From: an uncultured Rhodobacterales bacterium
Lineage (GTDB): Bacteria > Pseudomonadota > Alphaproteobacteria > Rhodobacterales > Rhodobacteraceae
Direction: 5' to 3'
Length of the DNA stretch: 64,000 nt
Assembly: GCA_903873585.1 (NCBI GenBank)
Contig: CAIQOV010000014.1
Location: 1-64,000, forward strand
The notes under the pieces are model-generated. The model was not told the DNA's origin and ran no database searches. It worked only from the letters and a program-made list of their open reading frames with translations. Made by a program: the position numbers and the translations under genes. Shown here in pieces: positions 47,448 to 58,871 of this stretch (the stretch's first letter is position 1; every line of letters starts with the position of its first letter).

Positions 47448-49091
47448 ATGCTGCGCAGTCTTGAAATTCGCGATGTGCTGATCATTGATCGGCTTGACCT
47501 GTCGTTTCAACCGGGCCTGAATGTGCTGACGGGGGAAACGGGGGCGGGCAAGTCGATTTTGCTGGATGCCTTGGGCTTTGTGTTGGGCTGGCGCGGTCGG
47601 GCTGATCTGGTGCGCACAGGTGCCGCACAGGGCGAAGTGACCGCCGTGTTCGATCTGCCCGAAGGGCACGCCGCCCGCGCTGTGCTGGATGCGGCGGGCC
47701 TGGAACCGGCGGACGAGCTGATCTTACGCCGCACCAACAGTGCCGATGGCCGCAAAACCGCCTATATCAACGACCGCCGCGCCTCGGGCGAAGTGTTGCG
47801 CGATCTGTCCGACACCTTGGTTGAATTGCACGGCCAGCATGACGACCGTGGCCTGCTCAACCCGCGCGGCCATCGCCAGTTGCTGGATAGTTACGCAGCC
47901 CTTGATCTGTCTGGCCTGCGCAGCGCATGGCGTGCGCGCTCTGATGCGCTGCGCGATCTGTCGGTGGCCGAAGCCGCCCTTGCCGCCGTTCGGGCCGAGG
48001 AAGACTTTCTGCGCCACGCCGTGGCCGAACTGAACAAGCTTGATCCCAAAGCGGGAGAGGAAGCGACCCTAGATACCCAACGCCGCGCCATGCAGGGCGC
48101 AGCGCGCATCCGCGAAGATATAGCGCGCGCGCTTCAGGTGTTAGGGCAGGGGGCCGACCCCGCCATGCAAGACGCGCTGCGGTGGCTGTCTGGTGTCTCA
48201 GACAAGGCCGAAACCCGCCTTGATGCACCCTTGGCCGCGCTAGAGCGTGCCATCTTGGAACTGGGCGAGGCGCAATCCGGTGTGGAAGCCTGCCTTGATG
48301 CGCTGGATTTTGACGACTCCGCGCTGGAACGCTTGGAAGAACGCCTTTTCGCCATCCGCGCCCTTGCCCGCAAACACGGCGTTTTGCCCGATGACTTAGG
48401 CCCCCATGCCGATGTGCTGCGCGCAAGGCTGGAAGCTTTGGACGGTGGCGAGCGTGGCTTGATCCGCCTGCGCCAAGCCGCCGGCATGGCCGAGGCCGAT
48501 TACACCCGCCGCGCCGAAGCGATGACCCAAGCGCGCCGAGTTGCAGGCTTGCGGCTGGATGCCGCGATGCAGGGCGAACTTGCCCCCCTTAAGATGGAAC
48601 GCGCGGTGTTTCGCACCGATCTGGCCCCGCAACAGCCCGGCCCTGACGGCCAAGACGAAGTGACCTTTACCGTCGCCACCAACCCCGGCGCGCCTGCGGG
48701 GGCTTTGAACCGCATCGCCTCGGGCGGGGAACTCAGCCGGTTTTTGTTGGCGCTGAAAGTGTGCTTAACCGGTCAAACCCCCGGCCTGACGATGATCTTT
48801 GACGAGATTGACCGCGGTGTGGGCGGGGCCACCGCCGATGCCGTGGGCCGCCGTTTGGCGCATCTGTCGCGTGAAGCGCAGGTGCTGGTTGTCACGCACT
48901 CTCCACAGGTGGCAGCGCTTGGGGCGCATCATTGGCGGGTGGAAAAGCGGGTGGAAAACGACGTCACCCTGTCAACCGTGGTGGCGCTGAACCCGCAAGC
49001 GCGGGTCGAAGAAATTGCGCGGATGCTGGCGGGCGATACGATCACCCAAGCCGCCCGCGACGCCGCCCGCGCCCTATTGGCCGGTGGCTGA
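47448..49091 (+). CDS. recN: DNA repair protein RecN
   Basis: A 547-residue SMC-like ATPase of double-strand break repair. Walker A GETGAGKSILLDALGFVLG is near residue 30, a coiled-coil middle (about 155-360) and a C-terminal ABC signature and Walker B (ASGGELSRFLLALK, LTMIFDEIDRGVGG). ATG 47448 is preferred over the in-frame GTG one codon earlier. Its last 18 bases overlap the convergent NTF2-like gene. Confidence 0.96.
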   Translation: MLRSLEIRDVLIIDRLDLSFQPGLNVLTGETGAGKSILLDALGFVLGWRGRADLVRTGAAQGEVTAVFDLPEGHAARAVLDAAGLEPADELILRRTNSADGRKTAYINDRRASGEVLRDLSDTLVELHGQHDDRGLLNPRGHRQLLDSYAALDLSGLRSAWRARSDALRDLSVAEAALAAVRAEEDFLRHAVAELNKLDPKAGEEATLDTQRRAMQGAARIREDIARALQVLGQGADPAMQDALRWLSGVSDKAETRLDAPLAALERAILELGEAQSGVEACLDALDFDDSALERLEERLFAIRALARKHGVLPDDLGPHADVLRARLEALDGGERGLIRLRQAAGMAEADYTRRAEAMTQARRVAGLRLDAAMQGELAPLKMERAVFRTDLAPQQPGPDGQDEVTFTVATNPGAPAGALNRIASGGELSRFLLALKVCLTGQTPGLTMIFDEIDRGVGGATADAVGRRLAHLSREAQVLVVTHSPQVAALGAHHWRVEKRVENDVTLSTVVALNPQARVEEIARMLAGDTITQAARDAARALLAGG

Positions 49092-49460
49092 GAAGGTCAG
49101 GCTGACCGCCTGCCACCCCGTGCTGCGCGCCGTTAAGACCGCCGTCAGCACCGCGCTAAATCGCGGCAGTTCTGCGCCCTGCTCATCGCGCGCGCCGCTG
49201 ACAACAAAGCGCTGTGTGACAATCGCCGCCCCCGGCCCCAGCACGCGCAGACGGTTTCGGCCCGAAACCAAGCGTGCCGTGGCAAAAATGCCGGAAAATT
49301 CTTCCGCAAAACTCGCCTCTGCCAAAGCGGCACTGTCGACCATAGAGCCGGTCAGCGTCAGCACATCGGCATCTTCGGCCAGAAACTGCGCCATTTCGGC
49401 GGCATCTTGCCGCCCGAAGGCACCGGCAAATTGTTTGGCAAACTCTTCTGGGCCGGTCAT
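49074..49460 (-). CDS. NTF2/SnoaL-like protein
   Basis: A 128-residue single-domain protein with the cone-shaped NTF2 pattern: EEFAKQFAGAFGRQDAAEMAQFLAEDADVLTLTGSMVDSAALA, then mixed strands. Related SnoaL/DUF4440 proteins bind small ligands or act as steroid-isomerase-like enzymes; none is suggested here. Its start overlaps the DUF1638 stop by four bases, making it the third gene of the corrinoid-protein operon. Confidence 0.78.
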   Translation of the reverse strand: MTGPEEFAKQFAGAFGRQDAAEMAQFLAEDADVLTLTGSMVDSAALAEASFAEEFSGIFATARLVSGRNRLRVLGPGAAIVTQRFVVSGARDEQGAELPRFSAVLTAVLTARSTGWQAVSLTFSATGQ

Positions 49461-50098
49461 TGCGCGAAACGCTCCATCGTTGTGGCCAGATCGCCGTATC
49501 CAGTGAAACGGCGTTCATAGGCAAGGCCAAGCCGCTGTGCACAGTCTGCGGCTTTAATATCCAAGGCAGGGTCATTCGTTTGCGCTTGATAAACCAATTT
49601 GGTGTAATTGGCAAAGTATGTGTCGCGCAATTGCGGATAGCGGTCTAACCCCATTGGCTTCCAAACAAAGGCGTCAAACTGGCGCACCAGAAAGTCGGTC
49701 AGATAAAAGGCGGTGATTTCACTATCAAGATGCGTGGCAAAGGTCGCGTTGCCTTCGAAGAACGAATAGCAATGCGGGCCTGCGATCATCTCTACCCCCA
49801 ATTGCGCGCATTTGGCGGCAAGCAACCCACCCGTGCCACAATCGGCATACAGCACGAAGATCGACTGATATTGGTCGCGGTGGTCTTCCACGGTGCGCGC
49901 CACCTCGGCGGTGATCTTTTCGGGGTACAGATGCAGCTTGGCGGGCAGGCATTGCACATCCATGTGCTGCCAATTGTTGACCTTGATCAGGGCCAACACC
50001 TCATGCGCCAAAGCGCCGCAGGCGATCAGCAGGACTGATCCGCTATGGCGCGGGGCAAGGCCGGTTTCGGTCAGGTCCGTGTCGTTTGGCTGTTCCAT
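49457..50098 (-). CDS. DUF1638 protein (corrinoid-associated)
   Basis: A 213-residue DUF1638 protein. It has conserved cysteines in LLIACGALAHEVLALIKVNNW (near residue 29) and VLYADCGTGGLLAAK, and an acidic/aromatic C-terminal half. DUF1638 genes commonly lie beside corrinoid methyltransferase proteins, as here, and have no known activity; a role in handling cobalamin, methyl groups or a metal would be guesswork. ATG 50098 (MEQPNDTDLTE) is chosen; 50125 would add nine basic residues. Confidence 0.85.
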   Translation of the reverse strand: MEQPNDTDLTETGLAPRHSGSVLLIACGALAHEVLALIKVNNWQHMDVQCLPAKLHLYPEKITAEVARTVEDHRDQYQSIFVLYADCGTGGLLAAKCAQLGVEMIAGPHCYSFFEGNATFATHLDSEITAFYLTDFLVRQFDAFVWKPMGLDRYPQLRDTYFANYTKLVYQAQTNDPALDIKAADCAQRLGLAYERRFTGYGDLATTMERFAQ

Positions 50099-50146
50099 GC
50101 GCCCTCTTAGATGGCCGCGCGCCAAAGCCCAAGGCGCAAATGCAAA

Positions 50147-50188: not shown

Positions 50189-50887
50189 TTAGGCCGAGGC
50201 GCGGTTGTGCTTGCGCAGCATAAACGCCTTGGCGGTTTCCACAGCTACGGCCGCATCGCGGCAATAAGCATCAGCGCCGATCGCCTTAGAGAATTCTTCG
50301 TTCAAGGGCGCACCGCCCACCAGCACGATGTAATCATCGCGCATACCCTTTTCTTTCATCGTGTCGATCACGACTTTCATATAGGGCATTGTGGTGGTCA
50401 GCAGGGCCGACATGCCCAAGATATCGGGCTTGTCGGTTTCAATCGCTTCAAGATACTTCTCGACCGAGTTGTTGATACCAAGGTCGCGCACTTCAAAGCC
50501 TGCGCCTTCCATCATCATGCCGACAAGGTTTTTGCCGATATCGTGAATGTCGCCTTTAACGGTACCAATCACCATCTTGCCCATGCGCGGCGCGCCGGTC
50601 GCAATCAGCAGCGGTTTTAGAATGGCCATGCCACCCTTCATCGCGTTTGCGGCCAGCAGCACTTCGGGCACAAACAAAATGCCGTCACGGAAGTCAGCGC
50701 CCACAATCGTCATGCCCGCCACCAAGGCTTTGGTCAAAACGTCATAGGGCGTCCATTTGCGGGCGATCAGGATATTGACGCCTTCTTCGATCTCTTCTTT
50801 CAGACCGTCATAAAGGTCGTCGTGCATTTGCAAGACAAGTTCATCGTCAGACAGTTCAGACAGGATGATATCTTCGTCGTCGGCCAT
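50189..50887 (-). CDS. B12-binding corrinoid protein (MetH-like cobalamin module)
   Basis: A 232-residue stand-alone cobalamin carrier. Residues 15-95 are the helical cap domain with GADFRDGILFVPEVLLAANAM; the Rossmann-like B12 domain has the histidine-on motif GDIHDIGKN (Asp113-His115-Gly118), SALLTTT and GGAPL. It resembles MtbC-type corrinoid proteins of archaea and the cobalamin part of MetH. With a homocysteine methyltransferase of the BHMT type 1.4 kb away, the likely role is carrying a methyl group for methionine synthesis. ATG 50887 has AGAAGGAGC before it. Confidence 0.93.
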   Translation of the reverse strand: MADDEDIILSELSDDELVLQMHDDLYDGLKEEIEEGVNILIARKWTPYDVLTKALVAGMTIVGADFRDGILFVPEVLLAANAMKGGMAILKPLLIATGAPRMGKMVIGTVKGDIHDIGKNLVGMMMEGAGFEVRDLGINNSVEKYLEAIETDKPDILGMSALLTTTMPYMKVVIDTMKEKGMRDDYIVLVGGAPLNEEFSKAIGADAYCRDAAVAVETAKAFMLRKHNRASA

Positions 50888-51128
50888 GCTGATGCTCCTT
50901 CTCGCGTTTCTTCGTCAATGGGGCCAAAGCCCGATTTGCACTTTTCCTTTAGCGACATGCCCCGCATGAAAGCCGACAGCAAGGGAAATTGAAAGGGCGA
51001 AATTGCGAAGGATTTTGGCGGTTTGGCTTTGTGGGCGGGTTTGGGGTGTTCGGGGGGGAATGCCGCGTTTGCGACAGGTCGTGGCAAAGTCCTCTTGCGA
51101 TGTTCCTAATATGTTCTAAATTGGCGGC

Positions 51129-52220
51129 ATGGATTCGCCCAAGCCCCACCCCAACCCGCGTCAAAAACTGCGTGCGCGCGGCGCTGTCAGCAATGACGCG
51201 GGGCGGTTTGAACCCACCGCGCGGATGGCTTTTGATGACGGTTGGGATTTGGCCGAAGACCCCCGCCTTTTGCGCACCGAGGTGCGTGTGGAAGAGCCGC
51301 GCTCTGCCATCACCTATAACACCTCGCCCGACCTGCCCTTTGACCGCTCGATCAACCCCTATCGCGGCTGCGAGCATGGCTGCATCTATTGCTTTGCGCG
51401 CCCGACCCATGCTTTTTTGAACCTGTCACCGGGTCTAGATTTTGAAACCAAACTCATCGCCCGCCCCGGCATTGCCCAAGTGCTTGACCGCGAACTTAGG
51501 GCGCGGTCTTACAAGGTCGCCCCCATCGCGCTTGGCACCAACACCGACCCTTACCAACCGATAGAGGCAGAACACCGCGTGATGCGCGATGTTTTGACCA
51601 CGCTTTTGGCCTTTCGCCACCCTGTCGCGATCACCACCAAAGGCACTTTGGTCGAGCGGGATTTAGACCTGCTTGTCCCCCTCGCCGAACAGGGGCTGAC
51701 TCGGGTGGGCATTTCGATCACCACGCTGGATCCCGTCTTGTCGCGCAAGATGGAACCGCGCGCCCCTAGCCCTGCACGGCGGTTGGCGGTCATTGCCAAG
51801 CTCGCACAGGCGGGGGTGTCGGTGCGCGTGATGGTGTCGCCCTTGGTGCCGGGCCTGTCGGATCATGAGCTAGAGCCGATCTTGGAAGCCGCAACCGCAG
51901 CAGGGGCCACGGGCGCAAGCTACATCAACCTGCGCCTCCCGCGTGAGGTGTCTGCGTTGTTTCAAGACTGGCTCGCCACCCATTACCCCGACCGCGCCGC
52001 CAAGGTCATGGCGCGGGTGCGCGAAATGCACGGCGGGCAGGATTATGATGCCGATTGGGGCAAACGCTTTCGCGGCACAGGGCTTTGGGCCAACCTGATG
52101 CAGCGCCGCTTTGCCGTGGCCGTGGCGCGCCTTGGCCTAGACCAACCGCTGCCCGCCCTGCGCTGCGATCTGTTTCGTCCACCGACGTCAAACGGGGCGC
52201 AGATGGGCTTTGACTTGTAA
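51129..52220 (+). CDS. radical SAM protein (PA0069 / SPL-like family)
   Basis: A 363-residue radical SAM enzyme of the PA0069/Rv2578c group. The [4Fe-4S] motif CEHGCIYC (Cys81, Cys85, Cys88) follows SINPYRG, the group signature; the TIM-barrel part continues with GTNTDPYQPIEAEHRVMRDVLTTL. These resemble spore photoproduct lyases in sequence but their substrate is unknown. It lies between the corrinoid and homocysteine methyltransferase genes on the opposite strand. Some starts of the family use a later Met. Confidence 0.9.
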   Translation: MDSPKPHPNPRQKLRARGAVSNDAGRFEPTARMAFDDGWDLAEDPRLLRTEVRVEEPRSAITYNTSPDLPFDRSINPYRGCEHGCIYCFARPTHAFLNLSPGLDFETKLIARPGIAQVLDRELRARSYKVAPIALGTNTDPYQPIEAEHRVMRDVLTTLLAFRHPVAITTKGTLVERDLDLLVPLAEQGLTRVGISITTLDPVLSRKMEPRAPSPARRLAVIAKLAQAGVSVRVMVSPLVPGLSDHELEPILEAATAAGATGASYINLRLPREVSALFQDWLATHYPDRAAKVMARVREMHGGQDYDADWGKRFRGTGLWANLMQRRFAVAVARLGLDQPLPALRCDLFRPPTSNGAQMGFDL

Positions 52221-52238
52221 GGGCGCGAAAGCGCGCCC
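52221..52238. terminator. shared hairpin in a convergent gap
   Basis: GGGCGCG-AAAG-CGCGCCC starts immediately after the radical SAM stop and lies eight bases before the stop of the convergent homocysteine methyltransferase gene. It has no strong T-run on either side. Confidence 0.5.
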
Positions 52239-52245
52239 CGCCAGA

Positions 52246-53262
52246 TCAGCCCCGCTTATTGCGCCGTTCGCGTGTTGGCTGGCCCGAGGTGTCACCCGTG
52301 CCGTCATTGGCCGATGAAAACGCGCCAAGCTTAGCCTGAATATCATCCGGCGAGGGTTTCGGCCCCTTGGGGCGCGTTTCCAAAGCGTGGCGCATGGCTT
52401 TAAGATGTTCCGGCATCGTGCCGCAGCATCCGCCGATGATCTTCACCCCCGCATCCCGCGCCAGAACGGCATATTCTGCCATCAGTTCGGGCGTGCCGTC
52501 ATAATGGATGTGGCCATCGTGATACTTTGGAATGCCCGCATTGCCCTTGGCAATGATCGGGCGGCTGGTGTTTGTCATCTCAAACCCCAGAACCGTGCGC
52601 ATCAAATCAGCAGCCCCGACACCACAATTCGCCCCAAAGGCCAGCGGCGGATGCGCCATCTTTTCGACCAGTGCTGCCATTTTGGTCGATGTCAGGCCCA
52701 TCATCGTATGCCCTGCGGTGTCAAAGCTCATCGTGCCGCACCACGGCAGGCCCGCCAAGGTCGCGGCTTCGGCGGCAGCGGCGTATTCTTCAAAGGCTGA
52801 CATGGTTTCAATCCACAACACATCCGCGCCGCCAGCTTTCAGCGCCGCCGCCTGTTCGTGGAAAATCTCGACCGCAAGGGCATGGGTCATCGTGCCCATC
52901 GGTTCAAAAATCTCACCCGTCGGCCCGATGGATCCTGCCACCACCACAGGGCGGCCTGCGGTATCGGCAATCTCGCGGCCCAAGCTGGCCGCCACACGGT
53001 TCAACTCGCCCACGCGCCCTTGGGCGTTGTGCAGTTTCAACCGCGCAGCATTGCCGCCAAAAGAGTTGGTCAGGAACAAATCCGACCCCGCCTTAACCGC
53101 GCTGCGGTACAAGGTGCGGATGTTGTCGGGCTGTTCAATGTTCCAAAACTCGGGCGGTTCACCCGAAGATAGGCCCATGTTAAACAGGTTCGTGCCGGTG
53201 GCCCCATCCGCCAAAAGCCAGTCTTGCGTCGCCAGCAGGCGGGACAGAAGGTCTTGTGCCAT
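52246..53262 (-). CDS. bmtB: homocysteine S-methyltransferase (BHMT/BmtB-type, MetH module)
   Basis: A 338-residue zinc TIM-barrel methyltransferase that transfers a methyl group to homocysteine. LLADGATGTNLFNMG is the N-terminal homocysteine loop; zinc ligands are Cys213 (FGANCGVG) and Cys279/Cys280 (GGCCGT). It is usually annotated as betaine-homocysteine methyltransferase, but it is equivalent to the first module of MetH. With the nearby stand-alone B12 protein I favour a cobalamin-dependent, split methionine synthase over betaine use. The last 40 residues are basic and likely disordered. It follows the zeta-subunit gene by 13 bases. Confidence 0.9.
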   Translation of the reverse strand: MAQDLLSRLLATQDWLLADGATGTNLFNMGLSSGEPPEFWNIEQPDNIRTLYRSAVKAGSDLFLTNSFGGNAARLKLHNAQGRVGELNRVAASLGREIADTAGRPVVVAGSIGPTGEIFEPMGTMTHALAVEIFHEQAAALKAGGADVLWIETMSAFEEYAAAAEAATLAGLPWCGTMSFDTAGHTMMGLTSTKMAALVEKMAHPPLAFGANCGVGAADLMRTVLGFEMTNTSRPIIAKGNAGIPKYHDGHIHYDGTPELMAEYAVLARDAGVKIIGGCCGTMPEHLKAMRHALETRPKGPKPSPDDIQAKLGAFSSANDGTGDTSGQPTRERRNKRG

Positions 53263-55921: not shown

Positions 55922-57469
55922 TTAGCGCGCTTTGGGCGCATGCCCCTTGGTCAGGTCATAAAACCCATCGCCCGCCACCTTGGCCCAGTCCGATGCGCTG
56001 CCATCGGGCCAAATCACCCGCACTTCGGCTTGCGGGTCAGCCCCTAGGCCAAAGTGCCACCAGCCCAACTGCCCGCCCGCATGGCCGCCGCCGGATGTGA
56101 TCTCACGCTGTTGCACGCGCGCGCCTTGGCGCAGTTCAATCCAAGCGCCAATCGCATCACGGTTGGCCCCGTCTTGATGCAGCGCCAGTTGCAGCCAGTG
56201 GCCCTTGGGAGCGCCTTCATTGCGCCACACCTCGGCCCCTGTGTTGCGGTTCACCACCACGATGTCCAACTGCCCGTCGCCGTTCAAATCCACCACCGAA
56301 GCGCCCCGCGCTTGGGCAAAGCTTGCGATCCCCGTCTTATCCCCCGCCTCGGTAAATGTGCCATCGCCCAAGCCCAACAGCAGGTTGTTGGGGTCTTTCA
56401 TCGCGAAATCTGGCATGGCCGACACATTGCCTTTGGCCACAAACAAATCCTGCACCCCATCGTTGTTCACATCCTGAAATTCGGCGTGCCATCCGGTCGA
56501 GGGGCGAAAATCGCCGCCCGTGTAGGGGCGCTGCGCAATGGCATGGCTGGCAAAGGCGATGTCTTTGTAAGTGGCCTTTTCCGGCCCCGCCGCCAGCACT
56601 TGCAACTTGCTGTCTGACATCGAGGTCATGAAGTAATCGGGAAAGCCGTCGCCATTCACATCGGTGCTGGCAATGCCCATTCCCCAGATTTTCAAGGGTT
56701 TCCACCCCTCTGCCGCCGTGTAAAGCGCGGGCGCTTGGTTGGGGGCAATGTGCCACATCTGCTCGCTGCCGCCCTTGTAATACTCGCGGTCGTTTGACAC
56801 CCGCAGCGATGGCGTGCCAGAGCGGTTCCAGTCGGTGAACAGCATCGACAGGCTGCAAAAGCTGGGCTTCAACTCTAACGGCGCGGCAAATCCCTGACCC
56901 TTGGGGCGGTACAGCGCATTGGGGGTACACGATCCCCACGGGAAAGCATCCTGCGTGCGGTCAATATAGGTGCCGATGGCAAGTGTCGGCCAAGCCTGCC
57001 CCTTTTCCCACGTCGCGGCAAAGGCGGTTGACCACAGATCGCGCCCGTCAAAGCCCCAATCCTCGTTGGCGCGGCTGAATTGGCAATGGCCCAGACCGCG
57101 CATCACCACATCTTCGCCCGACCGCAGCAGAACAAGGTCAAGGATGCCGTCGCTGTCAATGTCCAACGGATAGGCCCCCGTCACGCGGTCAAGCTCAACC
57201 CCAGCGGTCAGCGCGGTAAACTTCAACGCCCCGCCGGTCAGGCTGTCATTGCTGTATAACGTGGCCTTTTGCGTGCCCCCCGCCATCAGCAATTCTGGCT
57301 TGCCGTCGCCCGAACAATCAAAGGCCGCAACCCCGCCGCCGGTCATAAACTCCCACTCGCCGGCATAAACGCTTGCAATGCCAGCGCTGGCGGTTTCGTT
57401 GACATAGCGCGGAATTTCGACATCCGCGAAAGCAGGGGACGCCAGCAAAGCCAAGGCAAACCAACGCAT
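55922..57469 (-). CDS. exported CRTAC1-family FG-GAP/VCBS repeat protein with ASPIC/UnbV tail
   Basis: A 515-residue secreted protein. Signal peptide MRWFALALLASPAFA; then an integrin-alpha-like beta-propeller of calcium-binding repeats (DCSGDGKPELLMAGG, DIDSDGILDLVLLRS, DVNGDGFPDYFMTSM, DVNNDGVQDLFVAKG, DLNGDGQLDIVVVNR); the C-terminal part (IELRQGARVQQREIT ... HFGLG ... VRVIWPDGS) is the ASPIC/UnbV domain. It is presumably periplasmic or surface-located. It follows the haloperoxidase-like gene by one base, implying joint function. Confidence 0.9.
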   Translation of the reverse strand: MRWFALALLASPAFADVEIPRYVNETASAGIASVYAGEWEFMTGGGVAAFDCSGDGKPELLMAGGTQKATLYSNDSLTGGALKFTALTAGVELDRVTGAYPLDIDSDGILDLVLLRSGEDVVMRGLGHCQFSRANEDWGFDGRDLWSTAFAATWEKGQAWPTLAIGTYIDRTQDAFPWGSCTPNALYRPKGQGFAAPLELKPSFCSLSMLFTDWNRSGTPSLRVSNDREYYKGGSEQMWHIAPNQAPALYTAAEGWKPLKIWGMGIASTDVNGDGFPDYFMTSMSDSKLQVLAAGPEKATYKDIAFASHAIAQRPYTGGDFRPSTGWHAEFQDVNNDGVQDLFVAKGNVSAMPDFAMKDPNNLLLGLGDGTFTEAGDKTGIASFAQARGASVVDLNGDGQLDIVVVNRNTGAEVWRNEGAPKGHWLQLALHQDGANRDAIGAWIELRQGARVQQREITSGGGHAGGQLGWWHFGLGADPQAEVRVIWPDGSASDWAKVAGDGFYDLTKGHAPKAR

Positions 57470-57470
57470 C

Positions 57471-58787
57471 TTACGCCCTCGTCTTCAAAGCTATGGCATA
57501 GGCGGCAATGCAGCGCCCTTGGTCTTGGCCGTGTTTGATGGCAGGCATAAAGTGAATGCCGCCGTAAAGCCGCGATATCGCCGCCTCATCCGCCGCAGCC
57601 CAGAAGCTGGCAAAACTGCGGGTCGGCACGCCGTCAGGGGTGGGGCTTTCATCGGTGAAGTTGTAACTGTCGCCAAACAAGGCCGTCAAAACCGAAGCCG
57701 CCGCCGCCGATTGGGTGGAATGGCCCGAGGGGTATTCCGGAAACGGCGGGGTGTTCAGCAGCGGTTCCCACTTGGGGTCGATCACCTTTTTGATATAGCT
57801 GATCGGGCGGATCAGGTCGTATTGAAACTTGGCCGACCAGCAGCCAATGAAGGCATCCGCCATCGCCACACCCATCCGGGCCAAGGCTTCGACTTGGGCG
57901 GTCAGGTCCAGCCCCTTTTCAACCGCCACCTGCGTCATAATGGCGATCCAATGGCCGGGCGGGGTGTAAGACAGCATCGCATCATCCGACCAGAACCGCG
58001 CGATTTGCTTTTGTGCGTCGGTCAGGGACCCGCTGGTTGTGTAAACCTCCATCGCTTCGGCGTAGAACGGCGAGGCTGGGTCTTCGGAATAGTCTGTCGG
58101 CGGGGGCAGGGTGCAGGTCTCGCCTGCGGGCATGGCAAAGGGGCGGTTCTTGCCCCAATCGGGCAGCAGGGGCGCCTGTTGCAGCACGATTTTCGATGTT
58201 GGCACCCAATGCCCCGGCGCGGGGTTCAGGGTGTAGGTGGCAGGGAAACCCATGTTGTCGATCACAGCGCCGCCATCGCTGCGGGCCCAGTCCAAAACCG
58301 CCGCCGCCAAAGTCGCCCCGTAAGAGCGGCTGGCAGCCACCACATCCGCAGCCAAACCCGTCGCCGCCTGCTCGGCCAAGCGTGCGCTCAAGGTTTGCAC
58401 CGCGTGCTGGCCTGTTGGGCCGGTGTTGGCGAAAAGGTCGCGGATCAACCCTTCCATCACTGCGGTTAAGATCACCGCCGTGTCATAGCCTTGCCCCGTT
58501 GCGCGGTCGGGCAGGGCGGACAGCCCGTTCAACTGCCCGATCAGGCTGTGCAACCGCGCATCGCCACTTGCCAGCGCTTCAAAGGCCGCAACCCCCATAT
58601 AGGCCAAGGTGCGGCTGGCCACGGGCGGGGTATAGGTGGGCGTATGGCGCACCAGTTCCAGCGCCAAGCGGTACCACGTCGCAAGCACCTCGGCGGCCAC
58701 CGTCTCACGGTTGTCGCCTGACGCCTGTGCCGTGCCCCCCAGCAGCGCCAAAGCGACCCCTGCCGTCAAAAACGTGCGCCGTTGCAT
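57471..58787 (-). CDS. vanadium-dependent haloperoxidase / PAP2-superfamily protein
   Basis: A 438-residue exported protein. The leader MQRRTFLTAGVALALLGG is twin-arginine-like, pointing to folded, cofactor-loaded export. The vanadate/phosphate site is complete: Lys320 and Arg327 in AKFQYDLIRPISYI, PSGHS (353-357, His356) and SRLYGGIHF (Arg406, His412). The set fits haloperoxidases or acid phosphatases of one superfamily; activity with vanadate cannot be read. ATG 58787 is chosen over 58811 since AGGAG precedes and the Tat leader starts there. It is paired with the CRTAC1 gene and follows xylA by 84 bases. Confidence 0.88.
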   Translation of the reverse strand: MQRRTFLTAGVALALLGGTAQASGDNRETVAAEVLATWYRLALELVRHTPTYTPPVASRTLAYMGVAAFEALASGDARLHSLIGQLNGLSALPDRATGQGYDTAVILTAVMEGLIRDLFANTGPTGQHAVQTLSARLAEQAATGLAADVVAASRSYGATLAAAVLDWARSDGGAVIDNMGFPATYTLNPAPGHWVPTSKIVLQQAPLLPDWGKNRPFAMPAGETCTLPPPTDYSEDPASPFYAEAMEVYTTSGSLTDAQKQIARFWSDDAMLSYTPPGHWIAIMTQVAVEKGLDLTAQVEALARMGVAMADAFIGCWSAKFQYDLIRPISYIKKVIDPKWEPLLNTPPFPEYPSGHSTQSAAAASVLTALFGDSYNFTDESPTPDGVPTRSFASFWAAADEAAISRLYGGIHFMPAIKHGQDQGRCIAAYAIALKTRA

Positions 58788-58871
58788 CCCCGCATCTCCT
58801 ATTTGCCCCAATCCTTCGGGGTCGGGGGCTGGCCCCGATCTTGGCTGTTCACCCTGCGCGTCGTTTTCAGA

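Follow-up and report, generated by a model that had tools for sequence, protein, structure and literature searches.

Does this locus of an uncultured Rhodobacterales bacterium encode the homocysteine and corrinoid subunits of a cobalamin-dependent methionine synthase, or a betaine–homocysteine methyltransferase beside a corrinoid protein of another pathway? The window, i.e., the whole 64,000-nucleotide stretch analysed, contains two genes that had been read as a split methionine synthase, with the B12 domain (GDIHDIGKN) and the zinc homocysteine domain on separate proteins 1.4 kb apart and without the folate and reactivation domains of MetH. The coordinates, motifs and domains were all confirmed, and both the pterin-binding (PF00809) and activation (PF02965) domains are absent from the two reading frames. 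The two genes are named below after the Ruegeria pomeroyi parts MtgC, MtgD and MtgE (Mausz et al. 2025, PMC12478193). The features of the locus are:

49074..49460, minus strand: small DUF4440/SnoaL-like ORF, with a Pfam score barely over the cut-off
49457..50125, minus strand: DUF1638 gene (PF07796, E 2.6e-30)
50189..50887, minus strand: mtgC, predicted free corrinoid-binding subunit of 232 aa (PF02607 and PF02310)
51129..52220, plus strand: PA0069-family radical SAM gene between mtgE and mtgC (NF033668, 476 bits)
52246..53262, minus strand: mtgE ("bmt"), predicted homocysteine/zinc methyltransferase subunit of 338 aa (PF02574, E 2e-60)

The distance between the mtgC and mtgE ORFs (1358 bp) agrees with the initial annotation, yet the two are not simple operon neighbours, as the local order is DUF1638–mtgC–radical SAM–mtgE with the radical SAM gene on the opposite strand. 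Left out of that description was the DUF1638 gene, which lies directly downstream of mtgC, likely starts at the ATG at 50098, and has a Phaeobacter orthologue with a methionine phenotype. The neighbourhood is widely kept among the 80 loci of other genomes that are closest to this one, with DUF1638 downstream of mtgC in most of them and the radical SAM gene a conserved neighbour of mtgE/mtgC. The latter was rejected as a member of the system, its Phaeobacter inhibens orthologue being unimportant in minimal medium and not needed for methionine (PMC5764234). The SnoaL-like ORF, suggested as a partner by its 4-bp overlap with DUF1638, is probably not part of the system either, since elsewhere it is mostly separate from DUF1638 and near recN. 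An Rfam scan detected no riboswitch near the genes, three tRNAs being its sole matches in the window. Further along (55922-58811), translations indicate an FG-GAP-repeat-like secreted protein adjoining a PAP2/haloperoxidase-like protein.

A methionine synthase in separate pieces with a RamA-like reactivator is indeed on record for marine Rhodobacterales. Price et al. (2018, PMC5764234) described a three-part methionine synthase in P. inhibens (PGA1_c13370, c13350 and c16040) together with two reactivation proteins, the RamA-like PGA1_c15200 and the DUF1638 protein PGA1_c13340. Fitness data show that its homocysteine, corrinoid, pterin, RamA-like and DUF1638 genes are needed for methionine, and methionine rescues mutants in all five gene types. 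In R. pomeroyi, MtgC and MtgD have a second role in the demethylation of glycine betaine; mutants in either gene require methionine and fail to grow on betaine (PMC12478193).

The family matches of MtgC and MtgE are strong and far above chance. MtgC combines a B12 cap domain (PF02607, E 1.6e-16) with a B12-binding domain (PF02310, E 1.5e-26), bears the axial-histidine motif GDIHDIGKN at residues 112-120, has 1y80, 7xcn and MetH fragments as solved relatives, and keeps 83-93% identity across the 80 loci. The remaining B12-binding matches in the genome, judged from their translations, are two acyl-CoA mutase-like proteins and one regulator-like protein, leaving MtgC as the sole candidate for a free corrinoid methyl carrier.

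In MtgE, the PF02574 domain spans residues 16-294. Alignment with human BHMT (reference sequence identical to PDB 8d45) places Cys213, Cys279 and Cys280 on the zinc ligands Cys217, Cys299 and Cys300, and the conserved Asp19 and Glu152 on the homocysteine residues Asp26 and Glu159. These zinc ligands and homocysteine residues are common to MetH and BHMT and hence not diagnostic of BHMT. The counterparts of Trp44, Tyr77 and Tyr160, which we take to be the betaine site of human BHMT, are missing from all 62 MtgE relatives compared: Tyr77 is replaced by Gly and Tyr160 by Thr in 62/62, as in Thermotoga maritima MetH, and Trp44 by Pro or Ala. Among solved structures, T. maritima MetH is the best match (E 2.6e-34 versus ~1e-11 to 1e-14 for BHMT). 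Because MtgE has none of the betaine-pocket residues and is closer to MetH than to BHMT, "BHMT" is only an annotation name here. Judged by its sequence, MtgE is MetH-like, and the "BHMT-type" label in the initial annotation is wrong at this level; its companion warning, that an annotation as betaine methyltransferase would be misleading, probably holds, also for the name betaine--homocysteine S-methyltransferase of the NCBIfam model that MtgE matches (PRK07534, 591 bits). A similar argument has been made by Mausz et al. (PMC12478193).

The name of that model, with its high score, nonetheless favours an alternative in which MtgE is a stand-alone betaine/DMSP:homocysteine methyltransferase and mtgC serves only corrinoid-dependent demethylation of betaine or methylamines. 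In agreement with it, purified P. inhibens Bmt forms methionine in vitro from either betaine or DMSP when neither folate nor cobalamin is supplied (PMC12366255, 2025), five MTTB-family proteins are encoded in the genome, and in Azoarcus mtgC, DUF1638, mtgD and the RACo gene lie beside betaine transporters, with no bmt in the 16.6 kb examined. However, the substituted pocket residues and the better match to MetH speak against it, mutants in the corrinoid and pterin genes of P. inhibens share the methionine requirement of the bmt mutant (PMC5764234), and the authors of the in vitro study state that Bmt is no substitute for DmdA in vivo (PMC12366255). We therefore regard this alternative as improbable. 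B12-independent betaine activity, which the initial annotation had named as an observation that would speak against a split synthase, is thus on record for the orthologous P. inhibens enzyme only, in vitro; given the direct use of betaine and DMSP by that purified enzyme, such use is possible as a side activity of MtgE.

A split synthase calls for further parts, and families were searched one by one in the 3.2-Mb, 95%-complete genome assembly. The stand-alone pterin-binding methyltransferase and the DUF4445/RamA-like protein that the initial annotation had proposed to look for are both present. PF00809 occurs in two proteins, folP and MtgD, the latter a 327-aa methyltransferase of the methyltetrahydrofolate:corrinoid type on contig C2 (L002 1300-2283) that, among solved structures, best matches the folate half of T. 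maritima MetH. Adjoining mtgD is a metF2-like gene, missed by PF02219 but matching a solved methylenetetrahydrofolate reductase. Next to this pair on C2 stands a small PF13769 "Virulence_fact" gene (L129:6484-6861, minus strand), and "virulence factor" genes hold the equivalent place in Sinorhizobium meliloti pSymB and Azoarcus pAZKH (L127 8627-8962 and L128 16982-17284); the gene probably has an accessory role in the methyl-folate branch, its name being misleading, and a literature search combining this family with methylenetetrahydrofolate reductase returned nothing relevant. The genome has one RACo/RamA-type protein (contig C28), closest to the solved structure 3zyy, with a 2Fe-2S ferredoxin-type cysteine motif in its N-terminal sequence.

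The MetH activation domain PF02965 was detected nowhere in the genome (control positive in 7 genomes), and with mtgD and folP as the only PF00809 matches, the assembly yielded no intact metH; one hidden in the missing part is possible though unlikely. Nor does the genome encode a canonical MetE, its only such candidate being a weak 379-aa Meth_synt_2 protein (C22) that scores 88 bits against a cut-off of 406 for its best match and falls far below all curated methionine synthase cut-offs. A second PF02574 protein (302 aa; C23, L005:1471-2379, minus strand) comes nearest to the MmuM-type model, below its cut-off. Five MTTB-family (PF06253) methyltransferases lie on C36, C46, C23, C7 and C41 (L007-L011), and both of those scanned fall well short of the NCBIfam trimethylamine cut-off. 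The genome contains the membership set of a split methionine synthase, namely separate PF02574 and PF02607+PF02310 proteins, a stand-alone PF00809 protein other than folP, and RamA-like/RACo and DUF1638 proteins with PF02965 absent, and likewise that of the MtgBCD glycine betaine methyltransferase, namely mtgC and mtgD together with one or more PF06253 proteins. The layout of classical MetH, which unites homocysteine, folate, B12 and activation domains on one or two chains, is not found.

Our survey, an extension of the published profile of Price et al. (PMC5764234), covered 198 genomes sampled from the order, each at least 90% complete and bearing the same family label. DUF1638 and RACo are present in the same 183 genomes and missing from the same 15. 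PF02965 occurs in all 15 genomes without the pair; among the 183 with it, 22 also carry PF02965 and 161 do not. No genome of the sample lacks both routes. The 15 genomes span six genus labels, three of which also hold genomes with the system, pointing to several separate joint losses or gains. In addition, mtgC was found at 80-91% identity in 25/25 tested genomes with DUF1638 and in 0/15 without it, where the sole strong match is the MetH B12 domain at 33-37% identity. The open frame carrying PF02965 is 910-997 aa long in 23 of the 37 genomes that have it and 1243-1297 aa in 14, which suggests that many of them encode a two-part MetH without the N-terminal homocysteine domain.

That methionine comes mainly from another enzyme (the MmuM-like C23 protein, the MetE-like C22 protein or an unassembled metH), with the window genes serving methyl-group catabolism, is highly improbable: the second PF02574 protein and the weak Meth_synt_2 protein do exist and could supply some methionine, and 22/198 relatives have PF02965 alongside DUF1638/RACo, but the C22 score is far below its cut-off, the genome has neither PF02965 nor any PF00809 protein beyond folP and mtgD, and the core-MetE homologue of P. 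inhibens does not spare that bacterium its methionine requirement when these genes are mutated (PMC12478193).

With domains, residues, the full gene set, the absence of PF02965 and the co-occurrence all observed, we are highly confident that the window genes encode MtgE and MtgC, two of the three subunits of the cobalamin-dependent methionine synthase found in Rhodobacteraceae, working as follows. MtgD would methylate Co(I) on MtgC with 5-methyl-tetrahydrofolate as the donor, and MtgE would then use the resulting methyl-Co(III)-MtgC to methylate zinc-activated homocysteine, yielding methionine. Should Co(I) become oxidised to Co(II), the RACo/RamA-type 2Fe-2S ATPase, assisted by DUF1638, would re-reduce it, the two replacing the MetH activation domain. 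MtgC and MtgD probably also run in reverse, accepting methyl groups that MTTB-family proteins bring from betaines and passing them to folate; this dual role, like the methionine phenotypes, is taken from orthologues. We infer the order of methyl transfer and the action of DUF1638 on reactivation. Collectively, the observation is confirmed and its interpretation as a split synthase supported, by the gene order shared with P. inhibens as well as by the predicted gene set.

The three-part synthase is an already published system, and the new scientific value of the locus is confined to DUF1638, whose Phaeobacter orthologue has a methionine phenotype, which in the sample co-occurs perfectly with RACo and mtgC, and which has no solved relative. 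A sequence search of the PDB gave no match up to E = 5. Its AlphaFold2 model is confident (pLDDT 90.3) and alternates strands and helices as in a Rossmann-like fold; with E <= 0.001 as the limit, Foldseek found no match to it among solved structures, and its top hits, to generic alpha/beta hydrolases and carbamoyltransferases (TM ~0.3), were not taken as homology. Cys36, Cys59, Cys96, Cys119, His65 and His118 are invariant in 76/76 sequences, one of them from Betaproteobacteria. In the model, Cys36 and Cys59 sit at strand ends and Cys96 and Cys119 in loops after strands, a placement that makes a shared metal site plausible. In Azoarcus and S. meliloti, too, DUF1638 comes after the corrinoid gene, as part of clusters in which mtgD and RACo are also encoded. 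We tentatively propose, as an idea that may well prove wrong, that DUF1638 is a metal-site protein, with four invariant Cys and two invariant His edging a Rossmann-like sheet, and that the RACo-type reactivase needs it as an obligatory partner when acting on MtgC-type corrinoid proteins, e.g., for an electron-transfer or scaffold step undescribed in other corrinoid reactivation systems.

More broadly, genes named "betaine--homocysteine methyltransferase" in Rhodobacteraceae most likely encode the homocysteine subunit of a B12-dependent methionine synthase, and should be treated as such when needs for methionine and B12 are predicted from genomes.

Among known systems, that of P. inhibens has the same domains, the same order (PGA1_c13340-c13370), pterin and RamA-like genes elsewhere and no PF02965; it differs in nothing of substance, and the genetic evidence comes from P. 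inhibens. R. pomeroyi MtgBCDE shares orthologous MtgC and MtgD, metF2 beside mtgD and several MTTB-family proteins, whereas its mtgE (SPO1884) is far from mtgC (SPO2160). Human BHMT (1lt7/1lt8) has the PF02574 domain, zinc cysteines and homocysteine residues in common with MtgE, but its Tyr77, Tyr160 and Trp44 are not conserved there, and MetH is the closer relative. With MetH (E. coli; T. maritima, 1q7m) the locus shares the domain types and presumably the chemistry; here, in contrast, the domains reside on separate proteins, PF02965 is absent, and reactivation would fall to a RACo-type ATPase.
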